A stretch of DNA of 32,717 bases from Nitrosomonas sp. (GTDB taxonomy: Bacteria; Pseudomonadota; Gammaproteobacteria; Burkholderiales; Nitrosomonadaceae). The position numbers and the translations under genes were made by a program. The notes under the pieces were generated by a model that was not told the DNA's origin, did not search any database, and saw only the letters and a program-made list of their open reading frames with translations. Where the stretch lies: positions 1-32,717 of the forward strand of contig SSFW01000042.1 in the NCBI GenBank assembly GCA_008015595.1. The letters run 5' to 3'. This document shows, in pieces, positions 329-31,185 of the stretch; positions within the stretch are counted from its first letter, which is position 1; each line of letters starts with the position of its first letter.

Positions 329-2038
329 ATGGAACAAGTTAATATCACGAACTCAAATTCTCCTGAGCATATCGATCTAGATATGGTTAATGTTGATAAG
401 TTTATTCTAGATCTGAAAAGTGTATTCAAAGAAAATCAGATAATAAGGAGTTCAGATAGCGAATACAATCTCCTTTCTAAGGATCCCGCTGTAAATGCTT
501 GTAAGCCTCACGCTTTCATTTTTCCCGAATCGGTAGAAGAAACTCAGCTTATCGTTAATTTAGCAAGTAAGTATGATACGAAGCTTTGGGTATATAGCAC
601 AGGAAAGAATTGGGGTTATCTAAACACTGGTAGTAAAAAGAGTGACATTGTCGTCATCCTGAATAGGATGAATAAGATTCTTCATGTCGACCAAGATCTT
701 GCCTACGCAATTATTGAACCAGGGGTTACTTATGAAGATTTGAATCGTTATTTAAAGGTAAATAATTATTCATTGTGGACTGATTCACCTGGAGGACCTC
801 CAACTGGAAGTGTTATAGGAAATGCTTTGGATCGAGGGGTTGGGGTAACTAAGTATGGAGACCATTTCGCTCATTTGTGCGGATATGAAGTAATATTGGC
901 TGATGGAAATATTATCCATACTGGAATTGCTAATAAGAATGCGAGTAATGGCGCAGCTCATTTGTATAAATGGGGAGTAGGGCCTTATATTGAAGGATTA
1001 TTTAGTCAATCAAACTTTGGAATTGTTACGAAAGCTGGCATATGGTTAATGCGCGAGCCGGAAGATTATGCTTTGTTTGGATTGAATATTAAAGATAATA
1101 CTGCATTAGCCAAATGTATGGATTCTGTTCGCGAATTAATGCTCTCAGGCGTAATTCATGAAACAGGTCGTTTTTCTAACGATGTTGCGATCTTGACGCT
1201 TATAACTCAAGCGATTAACGAGGGGATCGATCCAAAACAATCAATAAGTAGAGAAGATTTAGCGAGATTAAAGCAAAAGTATCATGTTCCTGGGTGGACA
1301 GGTTCGTTCGGGATTTATGGGCGGAGAGCCATGGTGCGCACATCCATTAATCTTGCAAAGCGTGAATTAGAAAAGTCGAATTCTTGCGATCGAATAAATA
1401 TTTTTACTAAATTACGCGCTAAATTTCTGCGAGAAAAAATTGAACTGGTTGAGAGAACCAATTCTAAATTTATTTCGAGCTTAGTTGATTTCATATTGAG
1501 AAAATTTCTGGGAACCTCACTTGCGCTTATAAGACTTTTCCCAGGATTAATCGATCTTCACGAAGGGAAACCGGTTGAGACTGTCGTAAGGCGAGGTTAT
1601 TTTCGCTACCAGAAAAAACGACCAGAAAAAGATATACATGCTGGTAGAGACGATATTGGAATATTGTGGTCTGTTCCTGTATTACCATTCAAAGGTAGCG
1701 AAGTTGTCCTGTTTACCAAAGAATGTGAATCTTTATTTGCAAAATATAATTTTGATATTTATATGACGACCATGATTTTTAACGCTCGTAGCGTTTGTCC
1801 TCTAATGGCTATTCTCTATGATCGTTTAGATACTGAAGAAAGTAAGAGAGCTGAGCAACTATACCTGGCTATTCTTGATGTTTCTCACCAGATGGGCTAT
1901 CAGCATTTTAGAGCTGGAATAAATGGATGGAAGAAGCTATATCAAAATTGCCAGGAGCTTAAGGAACTTAATCAAAAGATCAAATTAGCAATGGATCCAA
2001 AAAATATCTTTTCACCCGGTAGGTATGGTATTGACTAG
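329..2038 (+). CDS. FAD-linked oxidase of the vanillyl-alcohol oxidase / p-cresol methylhydroxylase type
   Basis: This 569-residue protein has the PCMH-type FAD-binding fold. Visible blocks are STGKNWGY (about 90-97), IEPGVTYEDL (about 129-138), GNALDRGVGVTKYGDH (about 164-179), and SQSNFGIVTKAGIWLM (about 226-241). The C-terminus NIFSPGRYGID closes the flavin domain as in VAO family members. The middle (about 330-430) holds a basic, hydrophobic stretch including SLVDFILRKFLGTSLALIRL, which could touch a membrane. The family oxidises phenolic or alcohol substrates through FAD, but the substrate here is unknown. No cytochrome subunit gene is next to it. No signal peptide is seen, so it is probably cytoplasmic or membrane-associated. 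The start follows a run of six G (320-325). No sigma-54 site was found upstream. Confidence 0.8.
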   Translation: MEQVNITNSNSPEHIDLDMVNVDKFILDLKSVFKENQIIRSSDSEYNLLSKDPAVNACKPHAFIFPESVEETQLIVNLASKYDTKLWVYSTGKNWGYLNTGSKKSDIVVILNRMNKILHVDQDLAYAIIEPGVTYEDLNRYLKVNNYSLWTDSPGGPPTGSVIGNALDRGVGVTKYGDHFAHLCGYEVILADGNIIHTGIANKNASNGAAHLYKWGVGPYIEGLFSQSNFGIVTKAGIWLMREPEDYALFGLNIKDNTALAKCMDSVRELMLSGVIHETGRFSNDVAILTLITQAINEGIDPKQSISREDLARLKQKYHVPGWTGSFGIYGRRAMVRTSINLAKRELEKSNSCDRINIFTKLRAKFLREKIELVERTNSKFISSLVDFILRKFLGTSLALIRLFPGLIDLHEGKPVETVVRRGYFRYQKKRPEKDIHAGRDDIGILWSVPVLPFKGSEVVLFTKECESLFAKYNFDIYMTTMIFNARSVCPLMAILYDRLDTEESKRAEQLYLAILDVSHQMGYQHFRAGINGWKKLYQNCQELKELNQKIKLAMDPKNIFSPGRYGID

Positions 2039-2601
2039 TCAGTTACTGGGCAGCGGCGTATAAAACACCTGAACGAGTAGGCATTGTTTGTATAAGCTCA
2101 GATCATTGATAGAGCTAGATTGTGGTTATTTTTTGATAAATTTAACGACTAAACCTTATTTAAGCTAGAAAAGCATTTAAATTCTTACACCTAGCTTGAT
2201 GATCCTGCCCCATTAGTTTATTGCGCATTGATAATACATGATGTTGCTTTATTCCAATTGTAATAGTCAAGAAACTTTACAGTTTCCTACCGTTGCTGAA
2301 ATGCTTATTTGGCAGTCTGGCTTAATGGCTGATTTAATCATAAAAAGCTATAAGAATCATATTATTAACAAAGTAAGTTATACCGGTTGCCATCTAAGTA
2401 GTTCGCTCTATTGAAGTAATTCGCAGAGGTAAAATTTTTTACATTTTTCCCTATTCCTAAGATGCAAGGGAAGCGCAGCAATGCACAACCCTTTGTTAAA
2501 TAAAGAAAATAATTATATATTTTGATATGGCATGCTTTCTGCTTAATAAAGAGTAGCTAGCTAGTTAGTAATTATTTTCAAAATTTATCTGGAGGAAAGA
2601 A
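2039..2601. other. Noncoding gap between the FAD oxidase and the first PEP-CTERM gene
   Basis: This is 563 AT-rich bases with no convincing gene. A 58-codon frame at 2238-2414 (starting MMLLYSNCNS) has no ribosome binding site or recognisable motif. The right end carries a sigma-54 promoter at 2528-2543, a transcribed leader of about 50 nt, and a strong GGAGG at 2591-2595. A weak inverted repeat (CAAGGG at 2465-2470 and CCCTTTG at 2489-2495) lies 33 bases upstream of the promoter. Confidence 0.6.
2528..2543 (+). promoter_or_regulatory. Sigma-54 (-24/-12) promoter of the first PEP-CTERM gene
   Basis: The sequence TGGCATGCTTTCTGCT fits the RpoN consensus TGGCACG-N4-TTGCW, with the invariant GG (2529-2530) and GC (2541-2542) at the correct spacing. 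Only the C at position 6 and one T of the -12 block differ. Transcription would start near 2554, giving a leader of about 48 nt. A sigma-54 promoter needs an enhancer-binding activator; in PEP-CTERM systems the PrsK/PrsR pair is the known candidate, but its genes are not in this window. Confidence 0.8.
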
Positions 2602-3444
2602 ATGATTAATAAAATGAAGAAAACCGCAATTGCTGCAATGATCAGTGGCGGTTTAATGGTTGCTTCAATGTCAGCAAATGCAATTATTGTGGGTGGGATA
2701 AATTTTGGTGCGCTAGGGGATGACCCAAGCAACTTACATTTTGAAACTGCTACGTTGGCTCAGACTTTAATTGATGGAAATGGGCAAACCGTTACTGCTT
2801 ATGGTCAGATCACGACTGTTAATGGTGATACAAACTACTGTGGTGTAGCAGGCGACACAAATTGCGGATTATATTATGTAGCGACTTTCCAAAATTCTGC
2901 TGGTTTTACAGAATCAGGTGGAACAGCTGTTTCATTTAATACCGCGACGATTAACATCTTTTTTGCGGCTGATCCCGTTGGTAATCTGCTGACCAATCCA
3001 GGTGGATCTCCAGATAATGTTGCTGATATTTCTGCGCTACCTTTGTGGGCAACTTTTAGTAATCATGGCGATATCACAGGAACCGGTACTTTAGTCGGTG
3101 CGAGCGTACTGTCTGGTTCAACCGCTGGTTTGTATGATGTTGTTTCTGGTGGAGCGGTAGGAGATTTCTTGAACGCAAATACGGTTGATGATGGCGTGGG
3201 TGGTTTTGCGGATATCGATATTACTGCTTCTTTCTCTAACTTGAGATCGCGCTTGAATCAATTTGATACAGCAGTAGTAAACGGGAACTGCTTTAATGGA
3301 ACAGCAGGTGAAGGTGACTGGTGTTTTGGTGGTACAGCAGATATCGCTGGTGGAACGGTAACTGTTCCTGAGCCAGCAACAATGGCATTACTAGGCTTGG
3401 GTCTAGTAGGCATGGGCTTGGGAAGAAGATTCCGCCGCGCATAA
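2602..3444 (+). CDS. PEP-CTERM sorting-domain protein, copy 1
   Basis: This 280-residue exported protein starts with a signal peptide (basic MINKMKK, hydrophobic core, likely cleavage after ANA at about 27). It ends with a PEP-CTERM tripartite signal: VPEP at 255-258, a hydrophobic helix (MALLGLGLVGMGLG) and a basic tail (RRFRRA). Such tails are recognised and cleaved by an exosortase (EpsH/XrtA type) in the inner membrane before release to the surface or matrix. The body is rich in G, T, N and D, like a secreted beta-rich domain. It has four cysteines (C80, C88, C230, C241) that could form two disulfides. No enzymatic motif is visible. The start has GGAGG 6 nt upstream. A sigma-54 promoter at 2528 should drive it. 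Copy 2 lies 278 bp downstream. Confidence 0.93.
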   Translation: MINKMKKTAIAAMISGGLMVASMSANAIIVGGINFGALGDDPSNLHFETATLAQTLIDGNGQTVTAYGQITTVNGDTNYCGVAGDTNCGLYYVATFQNSAGFTESGGTAVSFNTATINIFFAADPVGNLLTNPGGSPDNVADISALPLWATFSNHGDITGTGTLVGASVLSGSTAGLYDVVSGGAVGDFLNANTVDDGVGGFADIDITASFSNLRSRLNQFDTAVVNGNCFNGTAGEGDWCFGGTADIAGGTVTVPEPATMALLGLGLVGMGLGRRFRRA

Positions 3445-3480
3445 ATTAGGCTCTGCTAATCGTAAAATAAGAGAAAATAT

Positions 3481-3515
3481 GATTCGTTCGCATTCTATTA
3501 AAATGTGAACGAATC
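3481..3515. repeat. 14-bp inverted repeat between the PEP-CTERM copies
   Basis: The arms GATTCGTTCGCATT (3481-3494) and AATGTGAACGAATC (3502-3515) pair with one G/T-type mismatch across a 7-nt loop. It lies 36 bases after copy 1 stops and 115 bases upstream of the sigma-54 site of copy 2. No T-run follows on the plus strand, so it is not a textbook intrinsic terminator. It could be a transcript 3' end stabiliser, a terminator, or an upstream site for an enhancer-binding protein. Confidence 0.6.
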
Positions 3516-3630
3516 CCTCAAAGAGCGGTGTCGGTTTTCTTTACACCCATCCCTTTCAAAGCTACATTCTTTAATTTGATTTCTATTTAATGCTATATTT
3601 ATTAACGGGTTATGTTTTCTATTCCAGAGA

Positions 3631-3646
3631 TGGTATGAATATTGCT
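3631..3646 (+). promoter_or_regulatory. Sigma-54 (-24/-12) promoter of the second PEP-CTERM gene
   Basis: TGGTATGAATATTGCT has the invariant GG (3632-3633) and GC (3644-3645) at correct spacing, and the full TTGCT -12 block. It is followed by TTAATAAAG, a string also present just after the copy 1 promoter. The site overlaps a possible upstream TTG start (3642), which shows that the true start of the gene must be further downstream. Predicted leader is about 65 nt. Confidence 0.82.
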
Positions 3647-3712
3647 TATTAATAAAGTGACTGGGTTATCCACGTTAATAGATATATTCTTTAATTCGAG
3701 TTATATAGGAAT

Positions 3713-3716
3713 GAGG
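3713..3716 (+). promoter_or_regulatory. Ribosome binding site fixing the start of PEP-CTERM copy 2
   Basis: GAGG with a 6-nt spacer to the ATG at 3723. This start aligns with copy 1 (MIKQIKKTA against MINKMKKTA) and excludes the in-frame TTG at 3642, which lies inside the promoter. Confidence 0.7.
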
Positions 3717-3722
3717 TTTAAC

Positions 3723-4559
3723 ATGATAAAACAAATAAAGAAAACGGCGATTGCTGCAGTGATCAGCGGTGGTTTAATGGCTGCCTCAATGTCAGCGAAT
3801 GCGATTGTTGTGGGTGGGATAGACTTTGGTGCACTAGGAGCGGATCCAAGCAACTTACATTTTGAGACCGCTACTTTGGCTCAGACTTTAATTGATGGAA
3901 ACGGACAAACCGTTACTTCTTATGGTCAAATCACGACTGTTAATGGTGACACGAGCTACTGTGGTGTAGCAGGCGATACAAATTGTGGATTATATTATGT
4001 AGCAACTTTCCAAAATTCTGCTGGTTTTACAGAATCAGGCGGAACGGCTGTTACATTTGATACTGCGACGATTAACATCTTTTTCGCGGCTGATCCTCTT
4101 GGTAATCTACTAACCAATCCAGGCGGTTCTCCAGATAATGTTACTGATATTTCTGCGCTACCTTTGTGGGCAACCTTTAATAATCATGGCGACATTGCAG
4201 GGACCGGTACCTTAGTTGGGGCGAGCGTATTATCTGGTTCAACCGCTGGTTTGTATGATGTTGTTGCTGGTGGAGCGGTAGGAGATTTCTTGAACGCAAA
4301 TACGGTTGACGATGGCGTGGGTGGTTTTGCGGATATCGATATTACTGCTTCTTTCTCTAACTTGAGATCGCGCTTGAATCAATTTGATACAGCAGTAGTA
4401 AACGGAAGCTGCTTTAATGGAACAGCGGGTGAAGGTGACTGGTGTTTTGGTGGTACAGCAGATATCGCTGGTGGAACGGTAACTGTTCCTGAGCCAGCAA
4501 CAATGGCATTACTAGGCTTGGGTTTGATAGGTATGAGTCTAGGAAGAAGATTCCGATAA
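3723..4559 (+). CDS. PEP-CTERM sorting-domain protein, copy 2
   Basis: This 278-residue paralogue of copy 1 shows about 20 substitutions over the aligned length by eye (roughly 93% identity). It keeps the signal peptide, all four cysteines, and the VPEP-helix-RRFR tail, which is two residues shorter at the C-terminus. The ATG at 3723 is chosen because it matches the copy 1 start, has GAGG upstream, and lies downstream of the sigma-54 promoter; earlier in-frame starts at 3642 and 3711 do not fit. The 3' halves of the two genes share long identical DNA tracts (for example 106 bp) while the 5' halves differ more. It should be exported and processed by an exosortase encoded elsewhere. Function beyond surface or matrix protein is not known. 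Confidence 0.92.
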   Translation: MIKQIKKTAIAAVISGGLMAASMSANAIVVGGIDFGALGADPSNLHFETATLAQTLIDGNGQTVTSYGQITTVNGDTSYCGVAGDTNCGLYYVATFQNSAGFTESGGTAVTFDTATINIFFAADPLGNLLTNPGGSPDNVTDISALPLWATFNNHGDIAGTGTLVGASVLSGSTAGLYDVVAGGAVGDFLNANTVDDGVGGFADIDITASFSNLRSRLNQFDTAVVNGSCFNGTAGEGDWCFGGTADIAGGTVTVPEPATMALLGLGLIGMSLGRRFR

Positions 4560-4568
4560 TATAAAGAA

Positions 4569-4605
4569 ACCTAGAAGCCTGCGTAAGATGCAAAGGCTTC
4601 TAGGT
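4569..4605 (+). terminator. Hairpin after PEP-CTERM copy 2, likely terminator
   Basis: A perfect 12-bp stem, ACCTAGAAGCCT (4569-4580) with AGGCTTCTAGGT (4594-4605), sits 9 bases after the stop codon with a 13-nt loop. The following bases are AATTGGTG, without a real T-run, so termination may be incomplete or the hairpin may protect the transcript end. Confidence 0.65.
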
Positions 4606-4629
4606 AATTGGTGTATTAGCATAATTTGT

Positions 4630-4773
4630 TTAAAATTCAGGTTTCATACCATATTGCTCTTGTAAAATTTTTGGGGTATAGCCTTCAAGACGGGCGTTAT
4701 GTGGTAATTTTAAGTACGCATTCTGTGTTCGCGCAATGTGAACTAAAAGATTAGTTAATCTCCGATCATATCC
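4630..4773 (-). pseudogene. Start-less reading-frame remnant, unassigned
   Basis: A minus-strand frame is open from just after a stop at 4774-4776 to a stop at 4630. It reads GYDRRLTNLLVHIARTQNAY and ends YGMKPEF. The amino-acid composition looks protein-like, but no ATG, GTG or TTG opens it and I do not recognise the family. It may be the broken 3' end of a gene whose other part is the small frame at 4829-5035, or it may be chance. Confidence 0.3.
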
Positions 4774-4828
4774 TTAGCACACTTGTTGAACACTAAAAAT
4801 AAGTGTTAGCCATTCACGACAATTCGTG

Positions 4829-5035
4829 TTAATAACATTTTGCTTGTAGGCGAATTGGCTTTGATTTTGCTATTTGTGCAGCAACTTCATCAAATTTTTG
4901 CTGATAATCTAGACTATTCTTAGGATCTGCCCCGTATAACCGAAGGTGTAAAGCTCCCATTAAGGGGTGCACAAGCCGTCGCGACTTGGCGCCAAGCGGG
5001 GAATGATGAGTAATTTCAAACCTATTGACTAACAA
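4829..5035 (-). CDS. Small frame overlapping the end of the acyltransferase gene, unassigned
   Basis: A 68-codon minus-strand frame begins with TTG at 5035, overlapping the stop of the upstream FeeM-like gene by 7 bases. It encodes a basic peptide with a protein-like stretch (RRLVHPLMGALHLRLYGADP) and ends in AKCY. No known domain is recognised. It could be a translationally coupled small protein, or a remnant of a gene decayed by frameshift, together with the remnant at 4630-4773. The TTG start and lack of its own ribosome binding site keep confidence low. Confidence 0.3.
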   Translation of the reverse strand: MLVNRFEITHHSPLGAKSRRLVHPLMGALHLRLYGADPKNSLDYQQKFDEVAAQIAKSKPIRLQAKCY

Positions 5036-6009
5036 TATACCAGCTTTTCTAGCTGAATAGCGCTATCTTCTTTAACTGCTTCAGTAAATAAGTTATAAAG
5101 CAAAGTACTTGTATTTTTGGTATTTAATGCTGCAAGTGGTATTGCAGCGGATAATTTTTCTTTCCCTGATTTCTTTTGCTGCTCTGGTAAATTCTGAATG
5201 ATTGATAGTATAGCGTGCTCTTCATTTTGGTTTAGAAAGTAACCATAAATAGATTTATTATTAGAACCCGATGTTGCTTGGTTTCTAATAATTTTTTCTC
5301 GCATATATTCCAAGTCTAAGCGTAACAATACAGCGGGAGCATCAACACGTTTACACACTCGTTCTTCACCGATTTGCTCAAATCCTAACATTCTCTTATA
5401 AAAGGCCGCGTGGCGAGGATTGATTTCGATGAATGCGTTCTTTACGCCGTAAATACAGTAAGCATATAAATAAGCGATATGAAACAATGAAGCAAAAATC
5501 TCTTTAGAACTTGAGCTGGGATTAAAAGCAAGTTTGGATACTTCGCATACTTTTTTTGCTTGGCCACGGAAAGCATCAATTTCTTCCTGATAGTGCTGAT
5601 CAGCAAGTAACCCTTTGCCTAAATCAATGATAAGCGTTAGCGTTCCTAGCTGACCACTTTCGTTACATGCTTCAAAGGTTATTTGATCTTTATCCGCTGA
5701 GAATACCGTTGTTTGGTCAGTATTATATCCACGAGAGGCATATCTCCGCTTGATGAGAGAGTTAACCTTCAGGCGCTGCTTAAGTGATGAGATTTCTCTA
5801 ATAAAATAACCATTCCTCCTGAGTAGACAGTTGTCAGAATCGGATTCTAATTTAGAGGTTTTTTGCTCGGATGGAGTATGTGTTGCTTTGCTTGTTTTTT
5901 CTGGAACAGCCAGTTGATTGAGGTATAGTTTTTTGACTAATGAACTGTTTGAGTATGTTTGTACATCATACATCGATTTAGATTTCGCGGTTCCCATCTT
6001 TGTTTGCAT
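5029..6009 (-). CDS. FeeM-like N-acyl amino acid synthase (GNAT-fold acyltransferase)
   Basis: This 326-residue protein matches the pattern of the FeeM / PEP-CTERM-associated acyltransferase family. The visible core is SSLKQRLKVNSLIKRRYASRGY (about 74-95), a VSKLAFNP strand (about 157-164), and the acyl-CoA/ACP-site-like stretch NPRHAAFYKRMLGFEQIG (about 197-214). FeeM-type enzymes join a long-chain acyl group from acyl-ACP to an amino acid such as tyrosine, and the fold is related to AHL synthases. The N-terminal ~65 residues and the C-terminal ~90 residues are outside the core and not recognised. The ATG at 6009 is preferred over a TTG at 6036 because AAGAGGA sits 7 nt upstream of it. A near-perfect sigma-54 promoter lies at 6171-6186. 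The acyl and amino-acid substrates are unknown. Confidence 0.75.
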   Translation of the reverse strand: MQTKMGTAKSKSMYDVQTYSNSSLVKKLYLNQLAVPEKTSKATHTPSEQKTSKLESDSDNCLLRRNGYFIREISSLKQRLKVNSLIKRRYASRGYNTDQTTVFSADKDQITFEACNESGQLGTLTLIIDLGKGLLADQHYQEEIDAFRGQAKKVCEVSKLAFNPSSSSKEIFASLFHIAYLYAYCIYGVKNAFIEINPRHAAFYKRMLGFEQIGEERVCKRVDAPAVLLRLDLEYMREKIIRNQATSGSNNKSIYGYFLNQNEEHAILSIIQNLPEQQKKSGKEKLSAAIPLAALNTKNTSTLLYNLFTEAVKEDSAIQLEKLVYC

Positions 6010-6016
6010 AATCCAT

Positions 6017-6023
6017 TCCTCTT
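6017..6023 (-). promoter_or_regulatory. Ribosome binding site fixing the acyltransferase start
   Basis: On the minus strand AAGAGGA lies 7 nt before the ATG at 6009. It falls inside the reading frame that would open at the TTG at 6036, so translation from 6009 is favoured. Confidence 0.65.
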
Positions 6024-6036
6024 TTCTTGTAGCCAA

Positions 6037-6416
6037 ATGGCCTATGAATGTAAAGCTTAGCTCTGATTGATTTCAGAAGTTTCTATATCTTTACTGTCAG
6101 CCTAGATGCTTATAAAACGAGTCTTTTATTCTATGTAAGCTCTCGTAAGAAGCGCTGTATCTTTGACTTACGCAATAAGCGTGCCACCATAAATAATTGA
6201 TAATATTCAATGGGTTGAATGGTTTGGTGAATTTCTGTCTGGCTTGATTGTGTCGCTCTAAGGTAACGCATTATTTGGGCGATATTGATAACAATATGAT
6301 TATATTGATTAAATTTTGTCTCTAAATTGAGACGATTATTTTTTCAATTTCGTGTGATTGAAAATAAGAACTGCAGAGAGAAAATTCTTTACTTGCTCTG
6401 AGAAGGATTGAGTCGG
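6037..6416. other. Noncoding gap between the acyltransferase and alkA genes
   Basis: 380 AT-rich bases without a gene. They hold the 5' leader of the acyltransferase transcript (about 150 nt, with a small hairpin ATAAAA/TTTTAT at 6112-6129), the sigma-54 promoter at 6171-6186, and an inverted repeat GTCTC-N6-GAGAC at 6318-6333, 132 bases upstream of that promoter. No other structure was seen. Confidence 0.6.
6171..6186 (-). promoter_or_regulatory. Sigma-54 (-24/-12) promoter of the acyltransferase gene
   Basis: Reading the minus strand, TGGCACGCTTATTGCG is an almost exact RpoN consensus (TGGCACG-N4-TTGC), with a G in place of the final A/T. It points towards the FeeM-like gene, with a predicted start near 6160 and a leader of about 150 nt. 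It is the best of the three sigma-54 sites in the window. Confidence 0.85.
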
Positions 6417-17463: not shown

Positions 17464-18552
17464 GTGAAACATACACTGTTGATCATGGCTGGGGGTACGG
17501 GAGGGCATGTGTTTCCTGGGATTGCCGTGGCCGATTATATGCGTTCACTTGGGTGGCGGGTTGTATGGTTAGGGACACAAAACGGAATGGAAGCAGTACT
17601 CGTGCCTAAATATGGCTATCCTGTCGAATATATTAATTTTTCTGGTATTAGAAGAAAAAGAATAATGGATTGGTTGCTATTGCCAGGAAAATTGCTACTC
17701 GCTTTCTGGCAAAGCATCAAAATTTTGATACGCAATCAACCGAGTATTGTATTGGGAATGGGAGGCTATCCCGCATTTCCGGGCGGATTAATGGCAGTTC
17801 TCTTGAATAAACCCCTAGTCATTCATGAACAGAATGCGATTGCTGGGTTAACAAATAAAATCCTTGCTCGAGTGGCTGATAAAATCTTATTAGGTTTTCC
17901 CGGTACATTTCCTCAAAAAGATAATCGTGTTGTTGTCACGGGAAATCCGGTGCGAAGTGAAATTTCAGAATTACCTTTGCCTGAGCAACGATTCTTAGAT
18001 CGCACTGGCCCTATAAAGATTTTGGTCATTGGGGGCAGCTTGGGAGCGAGTGTATTGAATAAAGTAATACCCCAGGCGCTTAGTCGTATACCTGAAGCAA
18101 AACGTCCCATCGTGCAACATCAAGCAGGTAGGCAGCATATCGATGAATTGAGAGAGAATTATCGTGAGCAAGGTGTTGAAGGGCAGTTAATCGATTTTAT
18201 TGATGATATGGCAGCCAGTTATGCCGAGTGTGATTTAGTTATTTGTCGAGCTGGTGCGCTAACGATTACTGAATTAGCAGCAGCTGGTGTTGCAAGCATT
18301 TTAATACCTTTTCCTTATGCAGTTGATGATCATCAAACGGCAAATGCTGAATATCTTTCCAAACCTGGTGCGGCAGTGTTGCTACCACAGCATGAATTGA
18401 ACGCTGATAGTTTAGCCGACAAAATAATGGAATTGACTCGAGCGCAGTTGCTTGATATGGCAAAAATTGCACGAAATTTGGCAAATTTCAATTCTGCGCA
18501 ACAAGTTGCGCAAGTATGTATCGCAATGGAGAAAACGAACAATGAAACATAA
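17464..18552 (+). CDS. murG: UDP-GlcNAc--lipid I GlcNAc transferase MurG
   Basis: This 362-residue peripheral membrane GT28 enzyme adds GlcNAc to lipid I, making lipid II. It starts (GTG) [19 protein letters not shown], with the GGTGGH donor-side loop. GGSLGAS is in the second domain. [14 protein letters not shown] followed by [14 protein letters not shown] is the UDP-GlcNAc site. The GTG at 17464 is chosen over the upstream in-frame TTG at 17449 because AGAGG is correctly placed before it and homologues begin near this point. Its last 11 bases overlap murC. Confidence 0.96.
18528..18532 (+). promoter_or_regulatory. Ribosome binding site fixing the murC start
   Basis: GGAGA within the 3' end of murG, 9 bases before the ATG at 18542. 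It supports the short murC start over the in-frame ATG at 18452, which would overlap murG by 100 bases. Confidence 0.65.
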
Positions 18553-25769: not shown

Positions 25770-26798
25770 TTAGGAAAGATTTTCGATATACCAATCCATC
25801 GCTTCTTCCAAACCTTTATCAATTCGATGTGTGGGTGCATAGCCCAGCAAGTTCATAGCTTTTGATATATCTGCCTGCGAATGTCGTACATCACCCTGGC
25901 GAAAATCAACATAAATCGGCTGATGATTTTGTAGATGGGGAAATTTGTTAATCAATAACTTACGCATCATTGAATAAAGCTGATTCAAGCTTGTACGCTC
26001 ATTTAACGCAATGTTATAGACCTGATTAATGGCTGCCGATTCTTCAGCCAATGCTGAGAGAAGGTTGGCTTGGATTACATTTTCGACAAAGCAGAAATCA
26101 CGGCTTGTTTCGCCATCCCCGTTGATTTTAAGTGTTTTGTTCTGAATCAACGCAGCAATCCACTGTGGAATTACCGCTGCATAGGCACCATTAGGATCTT
26201 GTCGAGGACCAAATATATTGAAGTAGCGCAGACCAATGGATTGGATGCCATAGCATCGTGCAAAAACATCAGCGTAAAGTTCATTGACATATTTGGTGAC
26301 AGCATAGGGAGACAGCGGGCGCCCGATTACAGATTCAATTTTTGGCAAATCGGGATGGTCTCCATAGGTAGAACTGGAAGCGGCATAGACAAACCGTTTG
26401 ACGTTTGCGTCACGAGCAGCAACTAACATGTTTATAAAACCTGAGATATTGCTTTCGTTGGTTTGGATAGGATCTTCAATTGAACGTGGTACTGAGCCTA
26501 ATGCGGCATGATGCAATACAAAATCGATATTCTCGCAAGCTTTTTGGCAGTCTTGCAATGATCGAATATCACCGCGATGAAACGTAAAATTAGCCCAGAT
26601 TGTTGGGCTAACCGCGGCTTTGACTTGATCGAGGTTATGCTGGTAGCCGGTTGAAAAATTATCGAGACCAACAACTTCTTGGTTAAGCTTTAATAACGCT
26701 TCCAGTAAATTAGATCCAATAAAACCAGCTACGCCAGTGACTAACCAGCGATAGGGCCTGGTGCTCAGTGTTTGCTGAATAATTTGATACCGAGTCAT
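25770..26798 (-). CDS. wbpP: UDP-GlcNAc C4-epimerase, WbpP/TviC type
   Basis: This 342-residue short-chain dehydrogenase/epimerase is very close in pattern to Pseudomonas WbpP. The NAD loop is [10 protein letters not shown] (21-30). The catalytic set is SSST (141-144) with Tyr165 and Lys169 in [20 protein letters not shown] (about 99-110) and [22 protein letters not shown] are the group-2/3 epimerase signatures. It interconverts UDP-GlcNAc and UDP-GalNAc, or their uronic-acid forms. It is 15 bases downstream of wbpO, with no clear ribosome binding site, so the two are probably co-transcribed. The product would feed a polysaccharide containing GalNAc(A). Confidence 0.9.
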
Positions 26799-26813
26799 AT
26801 TGGGAATACCGAG

Positions 26814-28094
26814 TTATAGACGCCAGACACTTAATCCTGCTTTACATAATTCGCTTTCGTTAAACTGTGATTTGACGTCAATAAAGCATCCTTTATCAAC
26901 AAGTTTTAAGCAAATTTCGGCTAATGGTTTCTGAATGAAATCTCGATGCGAGACAGCAGCTACTATCGCATGGGCTTTGGGGAGATTTTCCCAAGATTGC
27001 AGGGTTACACCATATTCGTGCTCAGCCTCTTTGGCCTCAGCTATGGGATCATGAACATAGACATCAACTCCATAATCTTTAAGCTCTGATATGACGTCTG
27101 CTACTTTAGAATTTCGTAAATCAGGGCAATTTTCCTTGAAAGTTAACCCCAACACGATTACTTTAGCGCCTTTAACATTAAAGCCAGCTTTAATAATTTG
27201 TTTGATCGTTTGCTCTGCGATGAATTTAGCCATATTGTCGTTAATGCGTCGTCCCGCCAAAATAACTTGCGGAATATAGCCGACCATCTCGGCTTTATGG
27301 GTAAGATAATATGGATCGACCCCAATACAATGTCCTCCAACTAGGCCAGGTCTGAAAGGTAAAAAGTTCCATTTGGTTCCTGCAGCTTGGAGGATTTCTA
27401 ATGTATCAATTCCCAATTTGTCAAAAATGATTGCGAGCTCATTCATGAGCGCGATATTTAAATCACGTTGGGTATTTTCGATAACTTTCGCAGCTTCAGC
27501 AACTTTAATACTTGAAGCTCGATAGACGCCGGCAGTTATCACTGATTCATAGAGGTGCGCTACCTTTTCTGACGTTTCTGGGCTATCTCCAGACACGACC
27601 TTTGTAATGGTTGTAAGGGTATGTTGCTTATCCCCTGGATTAATGCGTTCCGGTGAATATCCTACAAAAAAATCTTTTTTCCATTGCAAGCTAGAATATT
27701 TTTCTATTGCGGGAATGCAAACTTCTTCGGTTGCACCAGGGTAAACCGTTGATTCATAAATGACGATTGCGCCGCGCTTCATATTGCGACCTACTATTTC
27801 ACTCGCACCGATCAGTGCAGAAAAATCAGGTTGATGAGCCTGATCAACTGGGGTCGGAACAGCTACGATAATATAATCTGCTTTAGATAATTCAGTTGGA
27901 TCGGCCGTAACAGTTAATTGTGTTGCTGCTTTTAGATCAGCGGTAGATACCTCATCTGTTGGGTCGATATAACGCTTATAGCTCTCAATTTTACTGGTTG
28001 AAAGATCAAAACCAATGGTATTACGTTTTTTTCCAAACTCAACGGCTAACGGTAATCCAACGTATCCCAATCCTACAACAGCTACTGTATCCAT
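26814..28094 (-). CDS. wbpO: UDP-N-acetyl-hexosamine 6-dehydrogenase, WbpO/TviB type
   Basis: This 426-residue NAD-dependent nucleotide-sugar dehydrogenase oxidises C6 of UDP-GlcNAc or UDP-GalNAc to the uronic acid. The NAD loop is AVVGLGYVGLPLAVEFG near the start. The catalytic cysteine lies in GGHCIGVDPYYL (Cys256). YESTVYPGATEE and GYSPERINPGDK are family signatures. The ATG at 28094 is preferred to that at 28100 because AAAAGGA is too close to the first ATG and well placed for the second. It starts the wbpO-wbpP unit on the minus strand, divergent from the TPR lipoprotein gene. Confidence 0.9.
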   Translation of the reverse strand: MDTVAVVGLGYVGLPLAVEFGKKRNTIGFDLSTSKIESYKRYIDPTDEVSTADLKAATQLTVTADPTELSKADYIIVAVPTPVDQAHQPDFSALIGASEIVGRNMKRGAIVIYESTVYPGATEEVCIPAIEKYSSLQWKKDFFVGYSPERINPGDKQHTLTTITKVVSGDSPETSEKVAHLYESVITAGVYRASSIKVAEAAKVIENTQRDLNIALMNELAIIFDKLGIDTLEILQAAGTKWNFLPFRPGLVGGHCIGVDPYYLTHKAEMVGYIPQVILAGRRINDNMAKFIAEQTIKQIIKAGFNVKGAKVIVLGLTFKENCPDLRNSKVADVISELKDYGVDVYVHDPIAEAKEAEHEYGVTLQSWENLPKAHAIVAAVSHRDFIQKPLAEICLKLVDKGCFIDVKSQFNESELCKAGLSVWRL

Positions 28095-28380
28095 AAACAT
28101 TTCCTTTTATTCGCTAATTATTCAAAAAGCTTTTGTTTCTTAACCCTATTAGTTTCTCATTTGTGCTATAGATTACATGGAATCATCCAAGTTAGCTCGT
28201 GCAACAACACAACAAAGATGCGCTATTTTAGAAAATCTATATCATATACTTATGGTATAAATTCAAAAAAGGTATAGACTCGACTAATGAGAAAACTGAT
28301 CTTGGGAATTGAATTAACTGATTAGAATGGGTTTTTCTATCGAATTGGCTGTCTAATTTATTGATTAGGGAGATTAAGTA

Positions 28381-31185
28381 ATGGCAATAACTAATTATTA
28401 TAAAGGTACCACGAAAAAAAAATTTACAACAGTTCTTGTTTTAATTTTATTGATACTTACAACGATTACTGCTTGTGGTAAAGCCAAAGATGCAGACGCG
28501 CTTATTTCAGAAGCAAAACAATATCATGAAAAAGGAGATGATAAGGCCGCTATTATCCAGCTCAAGAATGCATTACAGCAAAAGCCAGATGATCGTGAAG
28601 CACGCCACCTTTTAGGCGCTATTTACAATCGGACTGGTGATGTTCGCTCAGCAGAGAAAGAATTGAGCCGTGCACTTAGTTTAGGCATGGATCCTGCGAG
28701 AGTACTTCCTGATTTGGGGCAAGCGCTCCTCAGTTTAGGCGAGTTTCAGCAAGTATTAGATAAAACCGAGACACTGCCAGAAAATGTTGATTTTGCTGAA
28801 ATTCTGACACTTAGAGGTAATGCTTTATTGGGACTTGGCAGATTTCAAGAAGCTAAAGAGTTATTTGATCAAGCACTTCAAGACAAGCCGGACTTTCCGG
28901 ATGCATTTATTGGGCTTGCTCGACATGCGCTTTCACAAAAAGATGTCGAAACTGCGATGCGTTTTCTAGAAGAGGTGACGACAAAATTTCCTGATAACAC
29001 GAATGCTTTAATTTTTAAGGGCGACCTGTTACGGGCACAAGGTAAAAATGATCTGGCGCTCGACGTATATGGTCAGGCAATCAAAGCTAGGCCTGATCAG
29101 GTTACTGGGTATGTTAACCGTGCCTCGGTTTTAATCGGTTTAGGAAAATTTGATTCCGCTCAGCAAGATTTGAATACAGCTAGCAAAATAGCACCGGGAA
29201 ATTTACTGATCGCATTTAATCAAGCGTTGCTCGATTTCACCCAAGGAAAACATGCAGTTGCACTTGATGCCTTACAAAAGATTTTAAGTTCAGCCCCGAA
29301 CCATATGCCGAGCGTGCTAATTGCTGCGGCTTCTCACTTTGCCTTAGGGTCAGTATTGCAAGCTGAACAACTCGTTAATCAATATCTAAAAGTAATTCCT
29401 AATAATCTTTATGCAATTAAACTAAAAGCGTCTATCTTGCTAAAGAATCATGCAGCAAAGCAAGCTATCGACTTATTGACACCTGCACTCAAATCAGCGC
29501 AGCAAGATCCTCAGCTATTAGCATTGGCTGGTGAAAGTTATATGCAAAGTAAAGATTTTGATAAGGCAACTGAGTTTTTTGAAAAAGCGAATGCGTTGCT
29601 TCCAGAAAGTGCTGCACTTCATACTGCGCTTGCTTTGAGTAAGCTAGGCCAAGGTGATCGTGAAAGTGCGATTGCTGAACTAGAAGCGGCTGCGAATTTG
29701 GATGAGCAATCACCGCGTGCAGGTGTATTACTCGTTATGACTCATTTGCAGACAAAAGATTTCAGCAAAGCTTTAAAAGCAGCAGAAGAACTTGAGAAGG
29801 AGCAAGTAGATAGCCCTTTGGTTCAGAATCTTAAAGGGAGTATTTATGTGGGAATGCAAGATTTAGCAAAAGCACGCGCTAGCTTTGAGAAGGCACTTGC
29901 ATTGCAACAAGATTATTTTCCTGCTATTTCTAACCTTGCTAGATTGGATGTACAAGAAAATAATCTAGAACGCGCTAAAAATCGTTTTGAAGATGTGTTA
30001 AAGCGAGACAAAAAACATATTCAAGCCATGCATGCCCTAGCAGGGATCGCGCTGACACAAAATAACAAGAATGAAGCGATCACATGGTTTGAGCGTGCAA
30101 GTAACGAAAACCCCAATGAACTCCAGCCCGCATTGCAATTAGGAGCGCTTTATGTGCGGTTGCAGGAGGGAAATAAAGCTTTGAGTCTTGCAAAAAAACT
30201 TCAAGGGAGTTACCCCGATAACTTGAGCGTAGTGGAATTGCTTGCGCAAGCTCAACTTGCAGTTAATGATAGGGTAGCTGCGCTTGAAAACTATCAAAAA
30301 CTAGCAGCTAGATTACCAGACTCAGCAGCTGCACAATTTCAACTTGCGAATGTGCAAGCATTACTACAAAACCAGAAAGCTGCTGCTGAAGCAGTCAAAA
30401 AAGCAATTGCGTTGAAGCCCGATTATCTGGAAGCAAATCTACTACAAGCTCGGCTTGAAATTCAGAATAACAAGCCTGATGAAGCGATGAAAATTGCTAA
30501 GGCGATCCAGAAACAACATGCAAAACTACCTGTTGGCTTTGAATTAGAAGGCGATCTTTTGATGAGTCAGAAGAAAGCAGCGCAAGCAATCGGCGCATAC
30601 GAAAAAGCTTTTTCGCTCAATCAATCGAGTCAATTGATGATTAAGCAATATGCAGCGTTGAGTCAAGGTGGAAAAGAAAAACAAGCGAATGAACGTATCA
30701 CGAAGTGGCTTGAACAACATCCTACTGATGCTTCCACGCGTTTATTCTTAGGCGGAGTTCATTTAGAAAAGAAACAGTTTGATGCGGCGATTAAACAATT
30801 CCAAATGGCATCGGAACAAAATCCTGATAACCCAATTATCCTCAATAATCTTGCTTGGACTTATCAGCAGATAAAAGATCCTTCTGCATTAGACTATGCG
30901 GAGAAAGCCTATAAAAACGCGCCTGAGAGTCCTGCGATTCTCGATACATTAGGTTGGATTCTCGTAGAAAAAGGAGAAATAGCACGCGCAGTCTCTCTTT
31001 TACAGAAAGCAGTTTCACTTGCGCCTGAGGCAGCAGAAAAACGCAATCACCTTGCAGTAGGTTTACAAAAATCTGGTGATAAAGGTGCAGCACGCCAAGA
31101 GTTAGAGCACTTATTAGCTTCAGGGAAAGCGTTCTCCAAAATTGACGATGCTAAAAAATTATTAAAAGATTTAGAAAAAGACTAA
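28381..31185 (+). CDS. prsT: PEP-CTERM/exosortase-associated TPR lipoprotein (PrsT type)
   Basis: This 934-residue protein starts with a lipoprotein signal (basic TKKK, hydrophobic LVLILLILTTIT, then the lipobox ITAC with Cys32). The rest is about two dozen tandem TPR-like repeats of about 34 residues, from AISEA-type helices at about 40 to the end. Its size, lipobox and repeat layout match the TPR lipoprotein found beside exosortase-type PEP-CTERM and exopolysaccharide genes (the family named PrsT). TPR scaffolds of this type are thought to assist polysaccharide export or assembly in the periplasm. AGGGAG precedes the ATG. It is divergent from wbpO and followed 229 bases later by the PP-loop gene. 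No exosortase is seen here. Confidence 0.85.
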   Translation: MAITNYYKGTTKKKFTTVLVLILLILTTITACGKAKDADALISEAKQYHEKGDDKAAIIQLKNALQQKPDDREARHLLGAIYNRTGDVRSAEKELSRALSLGMDPARVLPDLGQALLSLGEFQQVLDKTETLPENVDFAEILTLRGNALLGLGRFQEAKELFDQALQDKPDFPDAFIGLARHALSQKDVETAMRFLEEVTTKFPDNTNALIFKGDLLRAQGKNDLALDVYGQAIKARPDQVTGYVNRASVLIGLGKFDSAQQDLNTASKIAPGNLLIAFNQALLDFTQGKHAVALDALQKILSSAPNHMPSVLIAAASHFALGSVLQAEQLVNQYLKVIPNNLYAIKLKASILLKNHAAKQAIDLLTPALKSAQQDPQLLALAGESYMQSKDFDKATEFFEKANALLPESAALHTALALSKLGQGDRESAIAELEAAANLDEQSPRAGVLLVMTHLQTKDFSKALKAAEELEKEQVDSPLVQNLKGSIYVGMQDLAKARASFEKALALQQDYFPAISNLARLDVQENNLERAKNRFEDVLKRDKKHIQAMHALAGIALTQNNKNEAITWFERASNENPNELQPALQLGALYVRLQEGNKALSLAKKLQGSYPDNLSVVELLAQAQLAVNDRVAALENYQKLAARLPDSAAAQFQLANVQALLQNQKAAAEAVKKAIALKPDYLEANLLQARLEIQNNKPDEAMKIAKAIQKQHAKLPVGFELEGDLLMSQKKAAQAIGAYEKAFSLNQSSQLMIKQYAALSQGGKEKQANERITKWLEQHPTDASTRLFLGGVHLEKKQFDAAIKQFQMASEQNPDNPIILNNLAWTYQQIKDPSALDYAEKAYKNAPESPAILDTLGWILVEKGEIARAVSLLQKAVSLAPEAAEKRNHLAVGLQKSGDKGAARQELEHLLASGKAFSKIDDAKKLLKDLEKD

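Follow-up and report, generated by a model that had tools for sequence, protein, structure and literature searches.

The 32,717-nt stretch of DNA analyzed here (the window) is contig C97 of a draft genome of Nitrosomonas sp. (2.55 Mb, 176 contigs, 89.6% complete), a member of the Nitrosomonadaceae. It carries two PEP-CTERM genes and, convergent with the second of them, a gene for a FeeM-type N-acyl amino acid synthase (NAS). Each of these three genes is preceded by a predicted sigma-54 promoter, and the activators that may serve these promoters are the subject of this work (Table 1). The whole analysis was computational, and gene starts are first-ATG guesses. For comparison, we used 125 Nitrosomonadaceae genomes, whose kinship means that counts over them are not independent samples. 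FeeM was found in 38 of the 125 (E <=1e-20), and upstream regions were read at 49 FeeM loci drawn from these 38 genomes.

The assignment of the window enzyme as FeeM-type is supported by its profile match and by Glu156 (position counted by hand). This residue corresponds in the alignment to the Glu proposed as catalytic in FeeM and was invariant across 11 aligned sequences. The role of this Glu is described in the accessible text of PMC4897644. The window's PEP-CTERM subfamily (E <=1e-30) gave 18 matches in eight of the 125 family genomes, and all eight genomes have at least one copy within 4 kb of FeeM, the distance ranging between less than 500 nt (window) and slightly less than 4 kb (G022); three of the 18 copies are sited elsewhere in their genomes. 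This neighborhood bears out the view of a first-pass annotation of the window that the FeeM and PEP-CTERM genes belong together, and it supports a functional link between them.

Table 1. Genes and predicted regulatory elements of the window
Feature	Position	Strand	Description
FAD-linked oxidase	329..2038	+	PF01565, 98.7 bits
Degenerate PrsR motif, gene 1 (predicted)	2427..2443	+	AGGTAAAATTTTTTACA, 7/11, TTTACA half retained, 84 nt before -24/-12
Sigma-54 promoter, PEP-CTERM gene 1 (predicted)	2528..2543	+	TGGCATGCTTTCTGCT, GG-N10-GC, score 16.2
PEP-CTERM gene 1	2602..3444	+	280 aa; PF07589, 32.5 bits (cut-off 20.7)
PrsR motif (Haft motif 1), gene 2 (predicted)	3529..3545	+	TGTCGGTTTTCTTTACA, 11/11, 85 nt before -24/-12
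Sigma-54 promoter, PEP-CTERM gene 2 (predicted)	3631..3646	+	TGGTATGAATATTGCT, GG-N10-GC, score 14.8
PEP-CTERM gene 2	3723..4559	+	278 aa; 93% identity to gene 1
FeeM-type N-acyl amino acid synthase	5029..6009	-	326 aa; PF21926, 165.9 bits; PDB 2g0b, E 1.2e-13
Sigma-54 promoter, feeM (predicted)	6171..6186	-	TGGCACGCTTATTGCG, GG-N10-GC, score 17.3, 161 nt to ATG
GlrR enhancer site B, half site (predicted)	6251..6268	-	CGTTACCTTAGAGCGACA, 6/8 to TGTC/GACA, 64 nt before -24/-12
GlrR enhancer site A (predicted)	6317..6334	-	CGTCTCAATTTAGAGACA, 7/8 to TGTC-N10-GACA, 130 nt before -24/-12
prsT, PEP-CTERM TPR protein	28381-31185	+	TIGR02917, 982 bits (cut-off 312)

Sigma-54 sites in the window and the genome

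Sigma-54 sites were scored with a matrix whose base frequencies were set by hand, and a score of 14 was used as the site threshold. The three GG-N10-GC sites named in the first-pass annotation were recovered, and they have the three highest scores of the window. Altogether, four sites reached 14, as compared with 0.87 in dinucleotide shuffles. The fourth (14.6; 17592-17607, minus strand) is antisense within a coding frame, the next-scoring match (13.3; 29891-29906, plus strand) lies inside prsT, and a weaker one (11.3; 4856-4871, plus strand) falls between PEP gene 2 and feeM, which converge there, and has no gene start ahead. The earlier statement that no other gene of the window has such a site thus holds; neither prsT nor the FAD-linked oxidase gene has a sigma-54 site in front of it.

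Loose matching alone would not identify these promoters, as sequences with up to three mismatches to the sigma-54 consensus occurred 159 times in the window with 150 expected. Despite this, we regard the three sites as real, because their context and conservation support them. Conservation is the strongest support: the site is retained in a fixed layout at 43 of the 49 family FeeM loci.

RpoN is encoded in the source genome (460.5 bits; cut-off 277). In a genome-wide scan, the pattern TGGYAY-N5-YTGC, fitted to the three window sites, matched 94 times, as compared with 13 for the reversed pattern. The genome holds 13 PEP-CTERM matches, nine above the Pfam cut-off and four below. A sigma-54 site scoring at least 14 lies upstream of eight of the 13, namely seven of the nine above the cut-off and one below it. 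The expected count is about 0.07, a value that is indicative only, the pattern having been fitted to three sites. Another strong sigma-54 site precedes an apparent beta-carbonic anhydrase gene (L154; C176:3819, minus strand); for the activator near this gene (L047), the best models were NifA and PrsR-type, all below cut-off.

Enhancer motifs upstream of the PEP-CTERM and feeM promoters

Two upstream patterns were spotted by eye before they were counted, and their outside confirmation comes from Haft 2006 and from the GlrR consensus. The PrsR motif was searched as TGTCGR-N6-TTACA (scored out of 11). The GlrR-type motif was searched as TGTC-N10-GACA (out of 8) or in the extended form TGTC(G/T)C-N6-G(C/A)GACA (out of 12).

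In its accessible text, Haft 2006 (PMC1569441) describes, at 99 of 167 proteobacterial PEP-CTERM genes, a 17-nt motif that ends in TTTACA and has a sigma-54 element about 63 nt downstream, and it proposes PrsR as the reader of this motif. PEP gene 2 is an ordinary member of this class, having the motif and then the -24/-12 element, with PrsR (771 bits; cut-off 502.6), PrsT, and RpoN present. Its spacer of 85 nt differs from the published mean of 63 nt (reported range 32–92). PEP gene 1 retains only the 3' half of the motif, at the same distance as in gene 2, the 5' half having been lost. Its activator is uncertain, because only the TTTACA half is left. The feeM gene falls outside the class. 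The first-pass annotation took sigma-54 and PrsR control of PEP-CTERM genes as established; the promoter has been described since 2006, but PrsR dependence is called only "probable" in the accessible text of PMC9850573, which deals with an RpoN1-dependent PEP-CTERM gene of Aquincola. The likeness to pepA of Aquincola tertiaricarbonis lies in a mapped TGGCAC/CTGCTT promoter and a predicted enhancer ahead of a PEP-CTERM gene. It differs in that this text brings no acyltransferase into its account of pepA, and the window genes match the flocculation PepA model weakly (NF033554; 49 and 46 bits, below the cut-off of 80 bits).

Among the eight sigma-54-bearing PEP-CTERM genes of the source genome, the PrsR motif scored 11/11 in six, 9/11 in one, and 7/11 in window gene 1, and the match to the GlrR site was at most 5/8 in all. 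The PEP genes of relatives gave a similar picture: 11/11 at 83–106 nt before the sigma-54 site in six loci and 8–9/11 in four, with four loci lacking a scored promoter, two without a usable reading, and a GlrR match of at most 6/8 throughout. Three loci with two PEP genes each (L325, L329, L333) were excluded as evidence because their readings came from the wrong copy or gave a distance without meaning. Exact copies of the PrsR motif number 15 in the source genome, only eight of which have a sigma-54 site within 140 nt downstream. The spacings between motif and promoter (source genome and L317–L331) cluster at about 61–64 and 83–90 nt, about two helical turns apart, with one case of 106 nt. 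A strong PrsR/sigma-54 promoter with a spacer of 61 nt (L023/L035; contig C38, ~1573-1801, minus strand) lies ahead of a short frame (about 50 residues) that seems to hold little beyond a PEP-CTERM tail and a signal peptide.

The feeM promoters carry another element. The best PrsR match before the window feeM was only 6/11, and before 41 family FeeM promoters it ranged from 6 to 9 of 11, mostly 6–8. Instead, the extended palindrome (at least 10/12) lies ahead of the sigma-54 site at 43 of the 49 FeeM loci; the six loci without it are remote paralogues with 30–35% identity (L093–L098). The distance between palindrome and promoter was 114–119 nt in 22 loci and 124–130 nt in 21, with none between, so that the two groups are about one helical turn apart. 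A second half site, 64–67 nt closer to the promoter, was found at 34 of the 41 loci examined. Shuffling the same regions by mononucleotides yielded a palindrome of at least 10/12 in 38 of 2050 cases, as compared with 40 of the 41 real feeM regions. The best score for an integration host factor (IHF) site was 8 or 9 of 9 at 25 of 43 FeeM promoters and in 19% of shuffles, which is no more than suggestive of IHF help. No gene for a bacterial enhancer-binding protein was found near feeM by a GAFTGA-type motif search in 19 FeeM neighborhoods (L201–L219).

According to the accessible text of PMC8745638, TGTCN10GACA is the QseF/GlrR consensus. In E. coli, GlrR (QseF) acts on rpoE and on glmY, at the latter together with IHF (PMC6075780, accessible text). 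Upstream of glmY, E. coli K-12 has TGTCTGTAAATCACGACA, TGTCGCTTTCTGGCGACA, and TGTCTCTTTTTAGCGACA, followed by a sigma-54 site, and TGTCGCTTTCTGGCGACA is nearly matched by TGTCGCTTTCTAGCGACA at the feeM gene of one Nitrosospira. From this comparison, the feeM palindrome is a predicted GlrR/QseF site.

GlrR-type and PrsR-type sites separate cleanly across the source genome. When 93 of the 94 sigma-54 pattern sites were tested, a 7/8 match at the position of site A occurred only at feeM and at a subtilase gene on contig C98 (PF00082, 164 bits), both without a PrsR motif. Fifteen of the sites (one inside a coding frame) scored at least 9/11 for the PrsR motif, and none of these exceeded 5/8 at the site A position. 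The site of window PEP gene 1 belongs to neither group. Within the family, the composite pattern of palindrome, 110–134 nt, and promoter matched 82 times in 38 of the 125 genomes, as compared with one match for the reversed control. These 38 genomes are not identical to the 38 with FeeM; nine FeeM genomes, the source genome included, lack an exact composite match owing to deviating palindromes or promoters or to other spacing.

A GlrR-like activator and the competing readings

The source genome encodes a GlrR-like protein for which GlrR is the best NCBIfam model (598 bits), the next one being 196 bits lower (402 bits). Its identity to E. coli GlrR is 55.5% over 427 residues, as compared with 37–38% for three other activators. 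The C-terminal stretch RNRTEFYKLL, which we read as the recognition helix, is identical in the two proteins; PrsR, 37% identical to GlrR, differs there. The gene order (sensor kinase, small lipoprotein-like gene, regulator) is as in E. coli. The adjacent kinase is a histidine kinase by Pfam, and no GlrK model among those listed matched it. No GlrR sites of an autoregulatory kind were found before the kinase gene. The protein probably works like GlrR, but we do not assign it formally to the enterobacterial-type family. In the accessible text of PMC6075780 and PMC8745638, the GlrK/QseG/GlrR regulon (glmY, rpoE) resembles the present case in its tandem TGTC-N10-GACA sites, sigma-54 promoter, activator with the same helix residues, and gene order. 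The present case differs in the 66-nt distance between sites A and B, in having a half site at B, and in its host, an ammonia oxidizer. GlrR orthologues beyond the Enterobacteriaceae have already been listed for Acidithiobacillia (PMC12194929, accessible text).

GlrR-like proteins (E <=1e-140) occur in 58 of the 125 family genomes: in 37 of the 38 FeeM genomes, as compared with 21 of the 87 without FeeM. Within the window's genus, the counts are 16 of 16 and 16 of 69, respectively. We considered GlrR presence as a discriminator from PrsR and found it weak, since PrsR (55 of 125 genomes overall) follows FeeM almost as well. Both regulators follow FeeM; therefore, presence alone does not choose the activator, and the motifs do.

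Outside the family, we examined 64 FeeM loci (66 pieces, two without a FeeM match), a subset of the matches listed. The GlrR layout was nearly absent before FeeM, with one clear case (L374), in which tandem sites precede a sigma-54-like site by 144 and 65 nt. Two further 7/8 matches (L304, L348) were discounted on visual inspection, since their distance was 33 nt or the accompanying promoter was weak. Perfect PrsR motifs were found 63 and 73 nt before the sigma-54 site at FeeM in L316 and L360. Neither layout was convincing at the remaining loci. In L316, the FeeM gene is followed by a frame resembling a ThiF/nitroreductase fusion, a type found in published N-acyl dehydrotyrosine clusters (PMC12479983, accessible text). 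In L372, a GlrR site precedes another gene, which we take to encode a bactofilin.

A collection of named genomes was searched with an alignment query, a single FeeM query having found no relative, and the best 80 of 298 FeeM loci were used. These overlap the family sample, so that they add names rather than independent cases. Among these 80, 24 have ammonia-oxidizer names; 23 of them were called GlrR and the other had a weaker match (L376, 6/8 palindrome), and a bin labeled as an ammonia-oxidizing bacterium (L377) gave another GlrR call. Among the other 55, one GlrR call (L443) was judged spurious by its spacing and half site, and a Sulfuricella locus (L453) was PrsR-type, with a perfect motif at 52 nt. 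Convincing GlrR layouts in this set of 80 were confined to ammonia-oxidizer labels. Control of FeeM by GlrR thus appears to be chiefly a feature of the Nitrosomonadaceae, with FeeM elsewhere occasionally under PrsR.

The first-pass annotation had implied shared PrsK/PrsR control of all three genes. The sigma-54 promoters on all of them and the presence of rpoN and prsR are supported, but PrsK/PrsR control of feeM is not. A single regulon in which PrsR also reads the feeM palindrome would account for the common sigma factor, and PrsR is present in 36 of the 38 FeeM genomes. Many palindromes start with TGTCG like the PrsR motif, and the loci L316, L360, and L453 show a perfect PrsR motif at FeeM outside the family. 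However, FeeM promoters of the family have the GlrR enhancer with only poor PrsR matches, whereas PEP gene 2 and most PEP genes of relatives with a scored promoter show the reverse, and in genomes with PrsR-type PEP promoters FeeM bears GlrR sites. The palindrome is 18 rather than 17 nt long, symmetric, and equal to the GlrR consensus. Moreover, G013 (99% complete) has FeeM, the palindrome, and GlrR but no PrsR, although its FeeM frame holds a stop. On motif content we rejected the single regulon, which we consider unlikely.

The palindrome might instead be bound by another regulator that GlrR merely resembles. We infer GlrR from sequence only, and the source genome has several other activators. 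Nevertheless, the match to the published consensus and the glmY sites, the identical residues in the region of the DNA-binding helix, and the presence pattern speak for GlrR and make such a regulator quite improbable. That all the sites are chance matches and ordinary sigma-70 promoters are used, as the chance-level frequency of loose consensus matches in the window might suggest, is very hard to believe, being already contradicted by conservation and constant enhancer spacing at 43 of the 49 FeeM loci and by the enrichment before PEP-CTERM genes and of the composite pattern.

Several observations weigh against control of the PEP-CTERM genes by PrsR and of feeM by GlrR. The window feeM sites are imperfect, and PEP gene 1 has no clear PrsR site. 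The GlrR-like protein stays below the NF011695 cut-off of 763 bits, which none of the 125 family genomes reaches. In its operon, the gene in the middle matched no family and is a candidate for QseG by its position and lipoprotein-like start. The FeeM genome G108 (80% complete) has the palindrome, and no GlrR was found in it. The tracking of FeeM by PrsR and the rarity of the GlrR layout outside the family also count here. Neither motif is enriched by itself in the source genome: with one mismatch, the PrsR motif occurred 67 times (68 for the reversed control) and the bare palindrome at 97 places (163 for the reversed control); exact places in the palindrome search numbered five, feeM among them. 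As the bare palindrome is not enriched, the evidence consists in its position and conservation in combination with the promoter.

Taking these points together, we estimate a probability of about 85% that the locus is one FeeM/PEP-CTERM surface cassette with one sigma factor and two activators, PrsR for the PEP genes and GlrR for feeM. RpoN polymerase at the PEP-CTERM genes would be activated by PrsR bound to motif 1 about 85 nt upstream, a motif that is clear at gene 2 and degenerate at gene 1. At feeM, RpoN would act with GlrR bound at palindrome A, 130 nt upstream, and half site B, 64 nt upstream, through DNA looping that may be aided by IHF. An envelope signal would lead the adjacently encoded kinase to phosphorylate GlrR. 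The N-acyl amino acid would then be made under envelope stress or at a growth transition, and the PEP-CTERM proteins would follow PrsK.

Gene surroundings, other GlrR-type promoters, and biological meaning

The window oxidase is 26% identical over 508 aa to a Nitrosospira-group counterpart. A similar FAD-linked oxidase gene lies near feeM and the PEP genes in three of the seven neighborhoods viewed (L207, L214, L215; Pfam-confirmed in two). A secreted esterase-like gene occurs in five (L201, L207, L208, L214, L215) and is Pfam-confirmed in three as a GDSL or pectinacetylesterase type. Neither was seen in L202 and L204. Adjoining prsT, two sugar-nucleotide genes (25770-28100, minus strand) resemble TviC and TviB, both below equivalog cut-offs; TviC and TviB are Vi-type polysaccharide precursor genes.

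We examined 65 of the 82 composite matches and found a downstream frame in 61. By clustering, these comprise 15 cyanophycin synthetases, 13 FeeM proteins, five EpsA proteins, five PEP-CTERM-like repeat proteins, four subtilase-like proteins (by cluster), two PEP-CTERM proteins, and 14 singletons, with three mixed frames that are CAP-domain-like or acetyltransferase-like by eye. One member was tested in each of four clusters. The EpsA member scored 292 bits (cut-off 170) and the PEP-CTERM member 22.3 bits for TIGR02595 (cut-off 16); the repeat protein remained below all cut-offs, and the cyanophycin synthetase, a partial frame, scored 668 bits for NF010623, below the full-length cut-off of 877. 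The singleton L265 is also a PEP-CTERM protein (22.0 over 16). The cyanophycin synthetase genes behind GlrR-type sigma-54 promoters (L244, L246, L259, and 12 others) belong to the Nitrosospira group, which suggests a link between nitrogen storage and the envelope sensor. The EpsA genes (L236, L238, L242, L258, L268; one tested, the rest by cluster) are also Nitrosospira-group. EpsA is an exosortase-B-associated LuxR-type regulator.

The tie between NAS and PEP-CTERM systems is not new: the NAS–exosortase link has been in print since 2011 (Craig 2011), as mentioned in the accessible text of PMC4897644 and PMC11072679. Like the window locus, the systems in these sources tie a FeeM-type synthase to the PEP-CTERM system. 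They differ in that the accessible text gives neither a sigma-54 promoter nor an activator, both of which we propose for the window feeM. In Methylomonas LW13, the NAS knockout lacks a polysaccharide band, in keeping with a matrix role (PMC11072679, accessible text). For the FeeM product, an envelope or matrix lipid or surfactant appears likelier than a dedicated signal, because the role of GlrR in E. coli is in envelope homeostasis (PMC6075780, accessible text). We found no literature linking GlrR with PEP-CTERM, QseF with exosortase, or acyltransferase, exosortase, and sigma-54 together; subscription papers lay mostly outside this search, so that an earlier mention is possible.

The differing enhancers illustrate that one sigma factor can mimic shared control. 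At about even odds, GlrK/GlrR and sigma-54 in ammonia oxidizers may govern genes for the cell surface and for storage that differ from the targets in E. coli: NAS, EpsA, secreted subtilase, some PEP-CTERM proteins, and cyanophycin synthetase. In the same reading, the FeeM/PEP-CTERM cassette would be a two-key device, with one half of a surface layer unlocked by GlrR and the other by PrsR. No activator is named for the NAS of PEP-CTERM systems in the accessible text of the sources (PMC11072679 etc.). Placing feeM under GlrK/GlrR would provide a testable trigger and predict an envelope or matrix function. If true, a regulon known from Enterobacteriaceae would extend to nitrifiers with new targets, in organisms whose flocs and biofilms matter for wastewater treatment.

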